The translations under genes were made by a program, and so were the position numbers. Of a stretch of 64,000 nt of DNA, positions 15,165-22,414 are shown one piece after another. The notes beneath the pieces are model-generated. The model searched no databases. It had not been told where the DNA came from and saw nothing but the letters and a program-made list of their open reading frames with translations. Numbering within the stretch: the stretch's first letter is position 1; every line of letters begins with the position of its first letter. This DNA comes from Deltaproteobacteria bacterium (GTDB taxonomy: Bacteria; Desulfobacterota; Desulfarculia; JACQYL01), in contig JACQYL010000026.1 of the NCBI GenBank assembly GCA_016208165.1, positions 7,228 to 71,227 of the forward strand, read 5' to 3'.

Positions 15165-17599
15165 ATGAAGGGGACCCGCTTCAATGCCTTCAAGAACCTG
15201 CTACGGTTCGTAATTCTTGGCGACTTCTCCGCAAACAAGCTGAAATACATCCTAACCATAACGGGCATCGCTCTCGGCATAGGGATCTTTGTCGCTGTAG
15301 AGACGGCCCACGACACCATCAAGCAGAGCTTTCGGCAGACCAGTGGCTACGTTTCCGGGACACCCGACCTGCAAGTGGCGGCCGGCCAGTTCAGTTTCGA
15401 TGAAGAGATCCTTCGACGTGTCGAGGCAAACCCCATGGTCGCCCGAATCTCTTGATGGATCCTCAAAGCCTGATTTTGAACGAGGCGTTTGCCCTGGAAA
15501 ACGGATGGAGCCTCGGCATGAACGTACGGGTTCAGTATCAGGACCGGATCGTGGATTTCGTCATCAAAGGATTGACGCCCAGCCCTTCTCGGGCCCCCGG
15601 CGCGAACTCCTTTGGCGTTGTGGACATTGCCTGGGCTCAGCTTCTCTTCGGCAAGTTGGGTCGCCTGGATCGCTTGGACGTGACGCTTCGACCAGGCGTG
15701 GACCGGCTCGAAGCCGAGCGGGAGCTTAACCGGGTGTTGCCTCCCCGGGTGACCGCTTTTTCTCCCGAGACCAGCGGAATGCTCATGATGGGTCTGGTGT
15801 CCTCGTTTCAGCTCAACATCACCGCCCTCAGTCTGATCTCCCTGCTGGTCGGCATGTTCCTGATCTACAACACCATCTTCATCTCCTCCATCCGGAAGCG
15901 AAGGCAGATCGGTATCCTTCGAGCGCTGGGGGTCACGCGTAAAGGGATCTTCTGGATTTTCACCGCCGAAAGCCTGTTCTATGGAACGGCCGGAGGTTTC
16001 GCAGGCATCTGGCTTGGTTACCTGCTGTCCTATCTTACCGTGGATTCCATGGCGACCACCGTCAACATGTTGTATGCGCAGGTGGACGCCTCCCAGGTGC
16101 GGTTGTCTCCCCGCATCATGCTCATGGGCATGATTATGGGGCTCGTGGCGGCTTTCCTTTCGTCGCTGGTTCCCGCCCTCGAGGCCGCCCGTACGAGTCA
16201 GGCGGAAACCCTCAAAATGGGGTCCTACGAAATCCGCTTCGGGGAGACTCACCGGAAGCTGTTCCTCCCGGGCATTCTGCTCTTGGGGATTTCGGTGGCG
16301 CTGGCCCTTCAAAAGCCGGTCTGGGGAATCCCGCTCTTCGGCTATCTGGCCACCATGACCATTATGTTCGGCATGGCATTGATTACGCCTTTTCTGGCGG
16401 CGCCCCTGAGCGAGCTGATACATACGACCATAACCCGTTTTTGGGGGGCTGAAGGTTTTCTGGCGCATAAAAACCTGCTGCGGAACCTGGGGCGATCCTC
16501 GGTAATCCTTTGCGCCATCATGGTGAGTTTAGGCATGACGGTAAGTTTTGTTTTTATGATTCACAGCTTCCGTACTTCGCTGGCCGGCCTCATCGACCAG
16601 GTGGTCCGGTTCCAGTACTATGTGGCGGATCGACACCGGCTGGAACGGGGCGTTCCCGTTCCTCTGCCGAAGCGATTGACCGGCGAGATTGCAGGCATCG
16701 AGGGCGTCAGTGCGGTCGAAGGATACAGTCTGGTAAATCAGCCTTATGGGGATCGCGGCATCGTTCTTATGAGCGCAAATCTGAACATATACCGTACATA
16801 CGATCAGATCCGGTTTCTGACAGGCGATCCCGCCGAAATCTATGAAAACGCGATCCGGGGCGGCATTCTGATATCAGAGGCCCTGGCCGCGCGCAACGGA
16901 TTGCGCGCAGGGGACACCATGACGCTCATCACGCCATCGGGTCCCGCGGGATTTCGTGTTGCGGGCGTGTTCTACAATTACCAGTTTGACAGGGGAATGG
17001 CGTACCTTCACCGGCCCCTGTTCGAACGGTACTACCCGCGGGACGAGTTGACCGGCATCTACGTGTACGTGGACGATCCCGGCGCAAGAGCGCGGGTGAG
17101 GGAACGCCTCGAAAAAGGACCGGCGGACCGTTACGATCTGGTCATCGTGTTGCAGCGGCAGCTCAAGGAGTACATCATGGAGGCTTTCGACCAGACCTTC
17201 GCCATTACCTACGCTCTGCAGATCATCGCCATTGTGGTCGCCGTTCTGGCCATTGTGAACACGTTTTCCGCGGCCATCTTGGAAAGACAGCGAGAAATCG
17301 GTATACTCAGATGCATGGGCTTTGTTCGATCCCAAATCCGGAAAATGGTGCTCATCGAGGCGGGAGTGATCGGAGGAATCGGTTGTCTGTTCGGGCTGGC
17401 GAACGGACTGATGCTGGCCCTGGTGCTCATCTACGTCATCAACAAGCAGTCCTTCGGATGGAGCATACAATTTCAGACGCCGCTGGCCTCTTTGGCGTGG
17501 GCCACGCTCCTCGTGTTCGTAACGACGCTGCTGGCCGGTGTATTCCCCGCCGGATGGGCGGCCCGCACGAACCTCAGAGAAGCGTTCCGGTATGAATAA
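15165..17599 (+). pseudogene. FtsX-like ABC permease, split by an out-of-frame internal gap
   Basis: Two frames together make one permease of the AttF/G or LolC type. Frame 1 (15165-15455) gives 96 residues: a cytoplasmic start, the first membrane helix (ILTITGIALGIGIFVAVE) and the beginning of the periplasmic MacB-type domain, ending VARIS. Frame 2 (from ATG 15455 to 17599) resumes at DPQSLILNEAFALENGW and continues through the remaining helices and a second FtsX domain. By comparison with the family, roughly 50-70 residues of the periplasmic domain are absent at the junction near 15450. The stop and restart overlap as TGATG, so coupled translation of two polypeptides is formally possible. 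A deletion or sequence error is more likely. Confidence 0.65.
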
Positions 17600-18722
17600 G
17601 ATGGTTCGTCGACGTTTCACGGGCATGGCGGTCACGCTTCTGGTCCTGTTGACGGTTGCCGGGGCTCCGGCCTACGCACGGGAATTCTCGGCGGTGACAC
17701 CCGGCTATGCATTCGAATTTCCGAAGGATCACTTTTCCCATGAGAACTACCGCATCGAGTGGTGGTACTTCACCGGCAACGTCAACAGCGGCGGAAGGAA
17801 GTTCGGATTCGAACTGACCTTCTTCCGGTTCGGATTCAACGAGCCGGCCGTCATGTCCAATCCTTCCGCTTGGGCTCCCAAAGACCTCTATCCGGCCCAT
17901 TTCGCCATATCGGACATCGAAAACAAAACCTTTTTCTACGCGGAGAGCATCCGTCGCGCCGCTTTGGGCAGGGCCGGGGCGGATCCGGAAACCCGGTCGG
18001 TGCACAACGGTTCCTGGGAATGGAGATGGGGGCCCGAGTGGATCCTTCGCGCGGGAGAGGGCGATCATGCCATCGATCTGAGGCTGAAACCGTTAAAGGG
18101 CGTGGTGCTCCACGGCGACGGGGGATACTCTCCCAAAGGGGAAAGCCCGGAGGAAGCGTCGTACTACTATTCCTTCACCCGGTTGGAAACCGCCGGGACT
18201 CTGCGGATCGGAGGGCGGACGTTCCAGGTGAACGGGCTCTCCTGGATGGATCACGAGTTTACGAGCCGGCTTTTGAATCCTCGGAATCAGGAAGGGTGGG
18301 ACTGGTTCAGTATTCAGCTCGATAACAACATTGAAATTATGCTATACTTATTAAGGTATAGAGATAGCTCCAAGGTTGCCTTTGGCGCAGGCACGCTGGT
18401 GCACCCGGACGGTTCATGGACCGTTTTGAAGCGAAGCGGCTTCGAGATCACGCCCGAATCCTTCTGGCGCAGCGACAAAAGCGGGGGCAGGTATCCGGTG
18501 TCGTGGAGGATCAGGATTCCGGATTACGGCATCGACCTGAAAATTAAGGCGGCATTTTCGGACCAGGAACTCATCACGACTCGGAGTACGGGCGTTACCT
18601 ATTGGGAAGGAAGTGTGACCGCCGTCGGCCGGTTTCAGGAACAGGCCGTTAAGGGGAGCGGCTACGCGGAAATGACCGGGTACGCCGGTGCGATGAAAAT
18701 GGGTTTGGGGCAGGAGCCTTGA
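17592..18722 (+). CDS. AttH-like lipocalin-family secreted protein
   Basis: A 376-residue protein with a signal peptide (hydrophobic core MAVTLLVLLTVAG, cleavage near AYA-RE). It carries the AttH/CrtC lipocalin-like double domain, with conserved RIEWWYFTGNV near the start and GLSWMDHEFTS in the middle. Homologues include carotenoid 1,2-hydratase, but the AttH branch normally sits beside an ABC ATPase and an FtsX-like permease exactly as here, and is thought to handle a lipid-like ligand at the envelope. The ATG overlaps the permease stop by eight bases, giving tight coupling; ATG 17601 is the alternative start. Confidence 0.85.
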   Translation: MNKMVRRRFTGMAVTLLVLLTVAGAPAYAREFSAVTPGYAFEFPKDHFSHENYRIEWWYFTGNVNSGGRKFGFELTFFRFGFNEPAVMSNPSAWAPKDLYPAHFAISDIENKTFFYAESIRRAALGRAGADPETRSVHNGSWEWRWGPEWILRAGEGDHAIDLRLKPLKGVVLHGDGGYSPKGESPEEASYYYSFTRLETAGTLRIGGRTFQVNGLSWMDHEFTSRLLNPRNQEGWDWFSIQLDNNIEIMLYLLRYRDSSKVAFGAGTLVHPDGSWTVLKRSGFEITPESFWRSDKSGGRYPVSWRIRIPDYGIDLKIKAAFSDQELITTRSTGVTYWEGSVTAVGRFQEQAVKGSGYAEMTGYAGAMKMGLGQEP

Positions 18723-18806: not shown

Positions 18807-20417
18807 ATGAAAAAACGGCTCGCGATTCTTTTCCTGGGCTTCGTCCTCCTGGCCGGAACCGCATGGGCTGTGCCGGACGGCATCTGGAAGAACACGACCG
18901 GCACGCCGGCGTACAGTTTCTATGTACAAACGTACGCCGGGGACGACATGCTGGTCATTGTGGCGCCGAGCACGGACGTGTTCTGGGTGTTTCAGGACGC
19001 TGACGGCGACTACACGAACGGGTTCAACGCCGGCCAGGACCTGGGCGGGGGGGCCAACAGTCTGTCGATTACCTTTACGAGCGACAACAGCGCGCTGGCC
19101 AACATGACGCTGGTCGGCCAAATGCCCTCCTCCTACACCCTGGCCCGGAACGCCCAGGCGCCGGCCTCCGGCGGTGGGGGCGGCGGCAATCCTCCGACGG
19201 GCAGCCTTGCTTCGCCGACCAACGGCCAGACCGTGTCCGGGTCCATATCCATATCGGGCACTGCTTCGGACGACGTGGGTCTGAACCGGGTGGGAATCCG
19301 CATCGGGGGGGCCGCGGAGGTCAATGCGAGTCTGAACACCGGGACCGGAGCCTTTTCCTACACGTGGTTCACGACTTCGGTGTCCAACGGCGCTTACTCG
19401 ATCATGGTCACGGCCTACGACACCGAAGGCCTGAGCACGGTGATCGGCAATATCTCGGTCACGGTAAATAATGTCTCTCCGCCTCCAAGCGGGACTCCCA
19501 CCCTGGTGTACCCGGCCAACGGAGCATCCGTAACCGCCCCGTTTGATCTCGAGTGGACGGCCGTAACGGGAGCCGTCAGCTACACGGTTCAGATCGCCGC
19601 GGACAACGCGTTCACAGTCATTTTCGATGAGGGCGTCAGTGTCGATACTTTGCACAGGGTCATTAGCGGCACGGGTCAATGGTGGTGGCGGGTGCGCGCC
19701 AACCTGTCCGGAGGCGGGTTCAGCGGCTGGTCGTCCATCTGGTCGTACAACCTCGGTGGAGGTGGCGGCGGAGGCGGTGGCGGAGGAGCCGGAACCACGG
19801 TTGCGTTGTATACTCCCGCGGACGGATCCACGGTGGGCTTCTCGGTTCCCATGACCTGGTCGCCCCTGGCAGCGGCCGTCGGCGGGTATCACGTGGAAGT
19901 GTCATATTCAGGCGGTATCCTGCTGAACAACCAGTCATGGCCGTATGATGGAATGGACCTGGATACGTCAGCTGCAATGGGATTTACCCTCTATTGGCGG
20001 GTGCGCGCCAATCTGGGCGGGGGTTCCTTCGGTCCCTGGTCCGCCACCTGGAGTTTTTATGTGGCAAACCCGGCCAGCGACCGGAACCTGAAGGAGAACT
20101 TCGGGAACGTGGCGGCCGAGGACGTGCTGGCCAAAGTGGCGGAGCTTCCCGTCAGCACATGGAACTACAAGAAGGATACCGGCAAGACCCTGCACATGGG
20201 GCCAATGGCCCAGGATTTTCACGCGGCTTTCGGCCTGGGCGACGATACGACCATCTTCCCGCTGGACGCCAACGGCGTGGCGTTCGCCGCCATTCAGGAG
20301 ATGAACCGGAAGCTCGAGGTCCAGAGCGCCCGCATCGAGGAATTGGAAAAGGCCAATGCCGAATTGCGCGACGCACTGAAACTTCTATTGACAGGGGAGA
20401 CAAAAACAGCTAGATAG
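18807..20417 (+). CDS. Secreted multidomain protein with C-terminal S74 intramolecular chaperone
   Basis: A 536-residue protein with a signal peptide cut after GTAWA. Residues 20-118 form an N-terminal module starting VPDGIWKN that is shared with the next two genes. An Ig-like domain follows (PPTGSLASPTNGQTVSGS to VTVNNV), then two fibronectin-III-like repeats each ending in a WWRVRANL or YWRVRANL motif, joined by poly-Gly linkers. The C-terminal 113 residues start SDRNLKENF, the peptidase S74 hallmark, with Ser424 and Lys429 in the self-cleavage positions and a closing coiled coil (IEELEKANAELRD). S74 domains help trimeric fibres fold and then release themselves. AAAGGAG sets the start. Confidence 0.8.
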   Translation: MKKRLAILFLGFVLLAGTAWAVPDGIWKNTTGTPAYSFYVQTYAGDDMLVIVAPSTDVFWVFQDADGDYTNGFNAGQDLGGGANSLSITFTSDNSALANMTLVGQMPSSYTLARNAQAPASGGGGGGNPPTGSLASPTNGQTVSGSISISGTASDDVGLNRVGIRIGGAAEVNASLNTGTGAFSYTWFTTSVSNGAYSIMVTAYDTEGLSTVIGNISVTVNNVSPPPSGTPTLVYPANGASVTAPFDLEWTAVTGAVSYTVQIAADNAFTVIFDEGVSVDTLHRVISGTGQWWWRVRANLSGGGFSGWSSIWSYNLGGGGGGGGGGGAGTTVALYTPADGSTVGFSVPMTWSPLAAAVGGYHVEVSYSGGILLNNQSWPYDGMDLDTSAAMGFTLYWRVRANLGGGSFGPWSATWSFYVANPASDRNLKENFGNVAAEDVLAKVAELPVSTWNYKKDTGKTLHMGPMAQDFHAAFGLGDDTTIFPLDANGVAFAAIQEMNRKLEVQSARIEELEKANAELRDALKLLLTGETKTAR

Positions 20418-20556
20418 TAAACGATATGGGAACGGATCGCGAGGACGGCCGTCGCGAGGAATCGAGGAACGAGCGGCGGATATCCCGCGAGTTCAACACG
20501 CAGGAGGGACTTTATACCGTTTTCTCTTCATCGGTGAATGTACAAAGGAGATGACC

Positions 20557-21240
20557 ATGATGAAAAGGTTGGCGATGGTCTTCGTCGGCCTGATGCTGAT
20601 CGTAGGAAACGCGTGGGCTGTTCCCGACGGCATCTGGAAGAATATCACCGGCGCGCCGGCCTACAGTTTCTATATGCAGACCTACGTGGGAAACGCCATG
20701 CTGGTTATCGTGGCGCCGAACACGGAGACGTTTTGGGTGTTCCTGGACGCGGACGACAACTACACCAACGGGTTCAGCGCAAGCCAGGACCTGAGCGGAG
20801 CACCCAACAGCCTGTCGATCACCTTTACGAGCGACGGCAGCGCCCTGGCCAACATGACGCTCACCGGTCAACTGCCTGCCACGTACAACCTGTCCCGTAA
20901 CGCGCAAGCGCCTTCGACCGGTGATAGTGGCGATGCTCCCACACTGATTTCCCCCGCGGACGGCGAGACGATTGCCGTTCCGACATCCGCATCCCCTTAT
21001 AGCATGACCTGGACGGCCGTTACAGGAGCGGAGGGCTACATTGTCCAGATCTGTACGGACAACAGCTGCACCAACGTGATTTCGGACGATAATGGAGACT
21101 GGACGAGCACGGGGACAAGCATCTCGCTCACACATGCCACCGCTGGATTTGACTTTTACTGGCGCGTTCGGGCCGACCTTGGCGGCGGATCGTACAGCCC
21201 CTGGTCCGAGATCCGGCGGTTCCACGTTTCGAGTTCATGA
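20557..21240 (+). CDS. Secreted paralogue 2: N-terminal module plus one FN3-like domain
   Basis: A 227-residue protein. The signal peptide (cleavage after NAWA) and the first 95 mature residues are very similar to the preceding protein, sharing long blocks such as NSLSITFTSD and ALANMTL. A single fibronectin-III-like domain follows, ending in FYWRVRADLGGGSYSPW. The Ig-like domain, poly-Gly linkers and S74 domain of the first paralogue are missing, so it looks like a short form. AAAGGAG lies six bases before ATG 20557; ATGs at 20551 and 20560 are in frame. Confidence 0.75.
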   Translation: MMKRLAMVFVGLMLIVGNAWAVPDGIWKNITGAPAYSFYMQTYVGNAMLVIVAPNTETFWVFLDADDNYTNGFSASQDLSGAPNSLSITFTSDGSALANMTLTGQLPATYNLSRNAQAPSTGDSGDAPTLISPADGETIAVPTSASPYSMTWTAVTGAEGYIVQICTDNSCTNVISDDNGDWTSTGTSISLTHATAGFDFYWRVRADLGGGSYSPWSEIRRFHVSSS

Positions 21241-21355
21241 CCAGCGACCGCGGCGGAGAAAAGCGGCTGATTGAAGGCAACCGATATGGGGGCTTTTGAC
21301 AAGCCCTGCGCATCGCGAAGAGAATTCAAAATCGGCAATTGAAGAAAACAAGCCT

Positions 21356-22414
21356 ATGAAAAGAGCGAGTCTTCTCCTCGTCATTCTGATGTTCCTCGCC
21401 GGTGGGTCGGTTCTGGCCGATCCCGGCGGATTGTGGAAAAGCGAGAACGGGCCCACTCCGTATAGCTGGTACATTCAGACCTATGCGGGAGGCTCCATGC
21501 TGGTGATGCTGTCGGCGGACTTCGGCTCGTTCTGGGGATTTCTGGACACGCGATTTGAAGGCCGATTCGAGGCGGATCGTGATGTGGCCGGGAACCCGCA
21601 CACGCTGAAGATCTATTTCGAGGGCGACGATAAGGCTTACGCCGTTTTGACGTTTGAAGGGGAAAAGCCGGCCATATTTACTCTGGTCCGAAACGCGGCG
21701 GCGCCGGCTTTGGAAGATGACTCGGGCGGCGACAACCCGGATGGCGAAGACCCCGGCGATGAAGATCCGGGCGATGAAGATCCGGGCGATGAAGATCCGG
21801 GAGACGACGGCACGAACGGAAATCCGGCCACGGGCTCCATCCTTGCCCCTCCCGATGGTTCCACGGTGATCGGCCTGACCACGGTGAGCGGAAGAACTTC
21901 CCACGACGTCGTTCTCCAGCGGGTGACGCTCCGGATCGGTGACGGGCCGGAAGTGGATACGATGTTCAATGTGCTGACGGGTTCGTTCTTGTATATGTGG
22001 GAATCGACCACCTCACCGAAGGGACCCGTAACCATCACGGCCACATGCTACGATACGGCAGGGCTGAAGAAGGTCATCGATACCATTACGGTTACGGTAA
22101 ACAATACCGTCGGACCCATGGCCAATCAGGTCCAACCCATTTCTCCTTCCAACGGCGCGTCCGGCCTGAGCCTGCCCATCCAAATGACGTGGAATCCCGT
22201 GGACGACGTTGTGGGGTATCGCATCCAGGTCGCCAATAATTCAGCCTTCGTATCTCCCCTCCTGGTGGACCAGGACGTGTCGGGCACGTCTTTATCCTTT
22301 AACCGGTCATCGAGTTCAACGCTCTACTGGCGGGTGCGCGGCAACTACTCGTCCACGCATTTCGCCCCCTGGTCCTACACCTGGTCGTTCAGTATCGCCG
22401 GCGGCGGGCAGTAA
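21356..22414 (+). CDS. Secreted paralogue 3: N-terminal module, acidic linker, Ig-like and FN3-like domains
   Basis: A 352-residue protein with a signal peptide (MKRASLLLVILMFLAGG, cleavage near VLA). The N-terminal module is diverged but aligned with the other two (GLWKSENG, YSWYIQTYAGGSMLV, FWGFLD, LVRNAAAP). An acidic linker of EDPGD repeats leads to an Ig-like domain like that of paralogue 1 (PATGSILAPPDGST to VTVNNT) and one FN3-like domain with LYWRVRGNY. It has no S74 domain. The start ATG has a weak GAAGAAAA upstream. The linker may bind calcium, but this is a guess from its composition. Confidence 0.75.
   Translation: MKRASLLLVILMFLAGGSVLADPGGLWKSENGPTPYSWYIQTYAGGSMLVMLSADFGSFWGFLDTRFEGRFEADRDVAGNPHTLKIYFEGDDKAYAVLTFEGEKPAIFTLVRNAAAPALEDDSGGDNPDGEDPGDEDPGDEDPGDEDPGDDGTNGNPATGSILAPPDGSTVIGLTTVSGRTSHDVVLQRVTLRIGDGPEVDTMFNVLTGSFLYMWESTTSPKGPVTITATCYDTAGLKKVIDTITVTVNNTVGPMANQVQPISPSNGASGLSLPIQMTWNPVDDVVGYRIQVANNSAFVSPLLVDQDVSGTSLSFNRSSSSTLYWRVRGNYSSTHFAPWSYTWSFSIAGGGQ
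21746..21805. repeat. Four 15-bp tandem repeats encoding EDPGD
   Basis: Units of gaagatccgggcgat run from 21746 to 21805, with small changes in the first and last copy. They encode the acidic linker of secreted paralogue 3 and can vary in number without shifting frame. Confidence 0.9.

Follow-up and report, generated by a model that had tools for sequence, protein, structure and literature searches.

Each of the 21 MAT fibres of Bdellovibrio was found to have its signal peptide followed directly by a conserved domain rich in beta structure, which is thought to bind an element of the surface (PMC10769870). This N-terminal domain is without a PDB homologue, and several MAT fibres end in an S74 domain with the motif SDxxxK (PMC10769870). 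The motif, with the Ser and Lys five residues apart, was reported for Bdellovibrio Bd3182, endoNF and MyRF (PMC10769870, PMC8326128). Three genes of the window (the whole stretch of 64,000 nucleotides that was analysed, from a Deltaproteobacteria bacterium) encode proteins that recall the MAT fibres in plan, with a post-leader domain that is predicted to be beta-rich, followed by variable middle and tip parts. The domain, called the module here, is not local to the window; it belongs to a genome-wide family carried by very different exported proteins, and the family is larger than was first noticed.

Organization of the three window genes

The three genes were found in succession on the + strand (Table 1), as the original prediction had it, each encoding a signal peptide followed by a module of about 95 residues. 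The signal peptides were of the Sec type with a hydrophobic N-terminus, and no lipobox was found in the leaders of the three proteins. The predicted module motifs G-[IL]-W-K, FW-x-F and RNA-x-AP aligned in all three proteins. The Ig-like part of the proposed Ig-like/FN3-like mosaic was recovered by Pfam as Big_7 in proteins 1 and 3 (1.9e-13 and 8.7e-6, respectively), whereas the FN3-like units of proteins 1-3 were assigned from reading the sequence and gave no FN3 match in Pfam; the S74 end of protein 1 had been missed. The linker of protein 3, between the module and Big_7, was found to be acidic and to contain GDEDP repeats.

Table 1. Features of the three-gene locus (positions in the window)
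Feature	Position	Strand	Content or basis
CrtC/AttH-type double lipocalin protein	17592-18722		after ABC ATPase and FtsX/MacB-like permease
Gene 1 (536 aa)	18807..20417	+	signal peptide, module, Big_7, two FN3-like, Gly-rich linkers, C-terminal S74 and predicted coiled coil
Module copy, gene 1 (GIWK...YVQTY...FWVF...RNAQAP)	18867..19166	+	alignment of three modules, genome search
Big_7 bacterial Ig-like domain, gene 1 residues 130-201	19194..19409	+	Pfam PF17957 1.9e-13
Peptidase_S74 intramolecular chaperone and C-terminal helix, gene 1	20076..20414	+	Pfam PF13884 4.6e-13, Ser424/Lys429
Gene 2 (~229 aa)	20551..21240	+	signal peptide, module, one FN3-like domain; start 20551, 20557 or 20560
Module copy, gene 2	20614..20916	+	genome search, AlphaFold2 model
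Gene 3 (352 aa)	21356..22414	+	signal peptide, diverged module, Asp/Gly/Pro linker, Big_7, FN3-like domain
Module copy, gene 3	21416..21709	+	alignment of three modules, genome search

The C-terminal Peptidase_S74 match of protein 1 covered residues 424-475 with 49.7 bits against a cut-off of 22, and the Ser-Lys dyad was found to be intact (S424-D-R-N-L-K429, SDRNLK, which follows SDxxxK). The auto-processing domains of endoNF and MyRF resemble it in the C-terminal site and the Pfam match above the cut-off, and their dyads (S911/K916 and S587/K592, respectively) have the same five-residue spacing, whereas no beta-helical stalk was seen directly upstream of S74 in protein 1. By analogy, protein 1 is probably a trimer built with its S74 chaperone, which would cut itself off before Ser424 and is predicted to free a piece of 113 residues. 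The reading of the family as surface or secreted fibres, as originally proposed, holds well for protein 1 because its C-terminus is an S74 chaperone, and protein 1 would be an S74 fibre of compact build from a source other than phages or Bdellovibrio. A second S74 protein of the genome (L073 5308-7254, contig C20) was found to contain its S74 part near C20:5470-5625 and no module. Between the S74 parts of the two proteins the identity was 73% at the protein level and 78% at the DNA level, which is read as an instance of domain sharing within the genome.

The genes upstream of the three were found to encode an ABC ATPase, an FtsX/MacB-type permease and the CrtC/AttH-type lipocalin protein, whereas a tRNA-Ser gene and, on the opposite strand, T2SS genes lie downstream of gene 3. 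These neighbours, from which the original prediction had drawn support for surface or secreted fibres, are real but carry little weight, because about 45 other carriers of the module lie elsewhere and the only families seen repeatedly next to carriers were generic ones (regulators and ABC ATPases); a dedicated processing or partner gene was not found there, and a link between the module and these neighbours is thus unsupported.

With module 1 as the query against the rest of the genome, module 2 was matched at E 1.3e-47 and module 3 at 2.4e-20, and the three window modules formed one clade in the tree of 123 copies (SH-aLRT 95). Module 3 was about 40-43% identical to module 1, in agreement with its description as diverged. 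The claim that modules 1 and 2 are nearly identical and recently duplicated was too strong, as they are ~75% identical in protein, their genes are 78% identical in DNA over the leader and module, and only 25 of 45 four-fold sites are equal. From these values the duplication appears to be local but not very recent.

Module copies in the genome and their carriers

A family profile (A2) was built from 74 module copies and gave 84 genome matches at E <= 5.4e-4, and module 1 alone as the query gave 72 matches at E <= 10. The 84 copies were distributed over 36 contigs and 49 open frames. Two overlapping frames of L060 4283-4946 on contig C24 (171 and 120 aa) look like one gene with an apparent frameshift within its second module, and the count is therefore about 48 genes. 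No meaningful Pfam match was found for any of the 74 modules, the NCBIfam scan of the same modules gave single chance-level matches only, and the PDB sequence search gave no match, which upholds the view that the module is no named domain. The literature searches found no description of such a module either, and about 84 copies in one genome without a name in Pfam, NCBIfam or PDB (sequence) amount to a sizeable annotation blind spot.

A tandem pair of modules was found in 35 of the 48 surveyed frames. The module was present right after the leader in 26 frames, near the C-terminus in 17 (usually 15-30 residues short of the protein end) and internally in 5, and a signal peptide was found in 43 of the 48 by a simple hydrophobicity rule; a lipobox was present in one carrier only. 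Pairing and terminal position are not obligatory, since single-copy carriers and five internal pairs exist. The survey for tandem copies and their neighbours that the original prediction had proposed thus yielded many copies, mostly paired, but no recurring neighbour family.

The Pfam partners of the modules included peptidases (C11 clostripain, S8 subtilase and C1 papain), FGE-type domains in two proteins, an arylsulfotransferase, a BD-FAE esterase, a PcRGLX lyase-like domain, an RCC1 propeller, PKD arrays, a multihaem cytochrome and a weak beta-helix. Polymers or esters are the substrates of some of these partners (PcRGLX-like, BD-FAE), and the module is found at either end and in tandem as carbohydrate-binding modules (CBMs) are, so that it might take exported enzymes to a carbohydrate or other substrate outside the cell and not to the cell itself. 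The multihaem cytochrome, FGE-type, RCC1, PKD-only and S74/FN3 fibre carriers, however, share no obvious outside substrate, and no Pfam CBM family was found above the cut-off, which makes a CBM-like role rather doubtful.

The GC content of the carrier loci was 0.555 +/- 0.017 and that of the window 0.557, and contamination as the source of the carriers was rejected on this ground. Two adjacent, closely similar single-module genes were found in L047 5513-8071, the first with an FGE-sulfatase-type domain (Pfam 1.9e-40). A pair carrier with PKD repeats (L048, C4:10251-10589) was found to start with a cohesin domain above the Pfam cut-off, and two dockerin-like matches (C87:23914 and C19:27586) lie on contigs that also bear carriers.

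Predicted fold of the module

The AlphaFold2 model of the gene 2 module (17 alignment rows) had a mean pLDDT of 89.5 and a pTM of 0.82, and that of a tandem pair from L108 had a pLDDT of 89.0 and a pTM of 0.83. Each unit was found to contain eight strands and no helices in these models. The best neighbours of the single unit in the Foldseek search against PDB were lipocalin and FABP barrels, with E >= 0.012, a TM score of about 0.55 and an rmsd close to 6 A, the best lipocalin-like comparison giving E 0.012, TM 0.56 and rmsd 5.9. The pair gave poor global matches only (TM about 0.2-0.3), and nothing significant was found in the viral structure library. The HMM and structure-based searches put forward with the original prediction ended without a profile match and with weak structural matches only.

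The barrels of the lipocalin/FABP type contain an eight-strand meander as the models of the module do, whereas the module is much shorter (~95 aa) and has no sequence similarity to them. On the models, the resemblance is no more than a shared general topology, and the module can with confidence be described as a predicted small all-beta unit without a clear PDB homologue. The CrtC/AttH neighbour of the window genes is also lipocalin-like, probably by coincidence. The small all-beta fold and its match to ligand-binding barrels fit a CBM-like role, and the same weak matches, being consistent with the binding of small molecules or sugars, count against a docking role of the module.

Distribution beyond the genome

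The module was absent from all 62 other genomes of the same class that were searched, with a threshold as loose as E <= 0.1. Among 395 genomes sampled evenly across the phylum it was present in 5, including the window's own genome, and the other four belong to two class-level lineages. In the first lineage all three genomes examined of the class were positive, with 20, 30 and 37 copies. This lineage corresponds to the 'Deltaproteobacteria bacterium' MAGs nDJH13bin5, nDJH6bin12 and nDJH8bin5 (L103-L109), and a paper on magnetotactic bacteria (PMC7602337) contains bins with similar names. The second lineage was represented by one genome with 19 copies, the only one examined of its class. Most modules of these relatives were likewise in pairs and joined to exported proteins, with metallopeptidase, subtilase, SGNH-like, alpha/beta-hydrolase-like and papain-like partners by motif reading and not by Pfam.

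A contig scan with the own-genome modules found none, and a second contig scan found nDJH Deltaproteobacteria MAGs only; short strict motifs were used in both, so that absence outside the phylum is not proven. No module relatives were found in viral contigs (single-protein and alignment scans), plasmids or phages (tblastn), and a phage or plasmid origin of the module is accordingly unsupported.

A further possibility is that the module acts as a signal for secretion or sorting, which a transport machine such as the adjoining T2SS would recognize and which would be needed for export and not for retention. The presence of the module on exported proteins of many kinds and the T2SS genes directly downstream of gene 3 agree with such a signal, but a folded domain at both N- and C-termini is unlike the known C-terminal sorting tags, and the absence of the module from the 62 class relatives may also tell against it, depending on their T2SS content. 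The T9SS protein SprA had no match in this genome, a weak test as the control genomes were also without a match. A sorting signal is on balance improbable, and a tag specific to T2SS secretion was considered and ranked low.

Evolution of the module pairs

In the tree, the branching of first-position copies tended to be mirrored by that of second-position copies, although the proteins concerned have unrelated partners. The distances of first copies were correlated with those of second copies in 34 own-genome pairs (Mantel r 0.71, permutation p = 0.0002), after leaving out recent gene duplicates (r 0.65, p = 0.0002) and in 20 pairs of relatives (r 0.89, p = 0.0002), part of this signal being the plain descent of whole genes. 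Because same-position copies co-vary across unrelated proteins, the pairs seem to have been mostly inherited, or moved between unrelated proteins, as units. One pair lineage was found at the N-terminus of PKD and cytochrome proteins and also behind beta-helix-like domains (L067 and L070; fold read from sequence), and the terminus can therefore change. The pair of an arylsulfotransferase-like protein (L054 2786-4939) was grouped with pairs of the nDJH lineage and not with own-genome pairs (SH-aLRT 85-90), which hints at a possible exchange between class-level lineages in a tree of few columns.

The module might alternatively be a lineage-specific domain spread by duplication and fusion with no common role, the window genes then being ordinary secreted Ig/FN3 proteins. 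The copies are divergent (mean identity about 30%) and several carriers are gene duplicates in the tree, as would be expected of such a domain. The pairing, the terminal placement and the co-variation of units across unrelated proteins are, however, kept in two lineages, and the module has expanded in three class-level lineages, all of which suggests that a function has been maintained, so that the absence of any common role is very unlikely.

Discussion

The module is best read, at a probability of about one half, as a secretome-wide non-catalytic tag for docking or surface retention, because it is terminal, paired and joined to chemically unrelated partners that have no other obvious anchors. 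That no partner gene recurs near the carriers argues against this reading. The carriers would be exported by Sec and would then presumably cross the outer membrane, for example by way of T2SS, with the tag folding at one end of the exported protein. We infer that the tags would all bind one ligand on the surface or in the matrix of the cell itself (a polysaccharide, LPS or a scaffold protein) and would keep enzymes, cytochromes and fibres at their place of use. The three window genes would be single-module members displaying Ig/FN3 rods. A broader proposal is more tentative than the tag itself: a new docking system with a beta-barrel tag in pairs, which would have been passed on as a cassette to tens of exported proteins (about 50 here) and would have a putative common cell-surface receptor. 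The system would occur in several deep lineages of a single phylum, most of them uncultured, with some exchange among these lineages. If the module is a docking tag, the surface-retained proteome of several uncultured lineages could be read off, and the tag would be a new address working at either protein end, which raises the question of a common receptor.

Comparison with known systems

Dockerin and SLH are, like the module, repeated units present at either end of many exported proteins and giving a common address, whereas the module has no sequence match to them and is all-beta and barrel-like by prediction, without the Ca-binding or SLH helices. The dockerin model PF00404 matched 0 of the 74 modules. 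The Por secretion tail (T9SS CTD) and PEP-CTERM are likewise terminal parts common to tens of unrelated exported proteins, whereas they are C-terminal only and the module is N-terminal in 26 of 48 carriers. Their NCBIfam models gave no match among the 74 modules beyond chance level, and a C-terminal sorting signal is made less likely by the fact that the module can lie at either end of a protein.

The MAT domain measures ~130 aa and occurs singly at the N-terminus, whereas the module is ~95 aa, usually paired, attached at either end and in most cases to enzymes. The MAT family has an intertwined trimeric stalk of beta-helix/beta-prism type, whereas protein 1 was found to contain a Big_7 and FN3-like rod before S74 and gave no beta-helix match in Pfam. 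When its domains are set side by side with the MAT description, the layout of protein 1 is that of a small fibre of the MAT type, and the window genes may be taken as three single-module display proteins, one of them probably a trimeric fibre working like the Bdellovibrio MAT fibres. By this analogy, the MAT family is the closest precedent for the docking idea.
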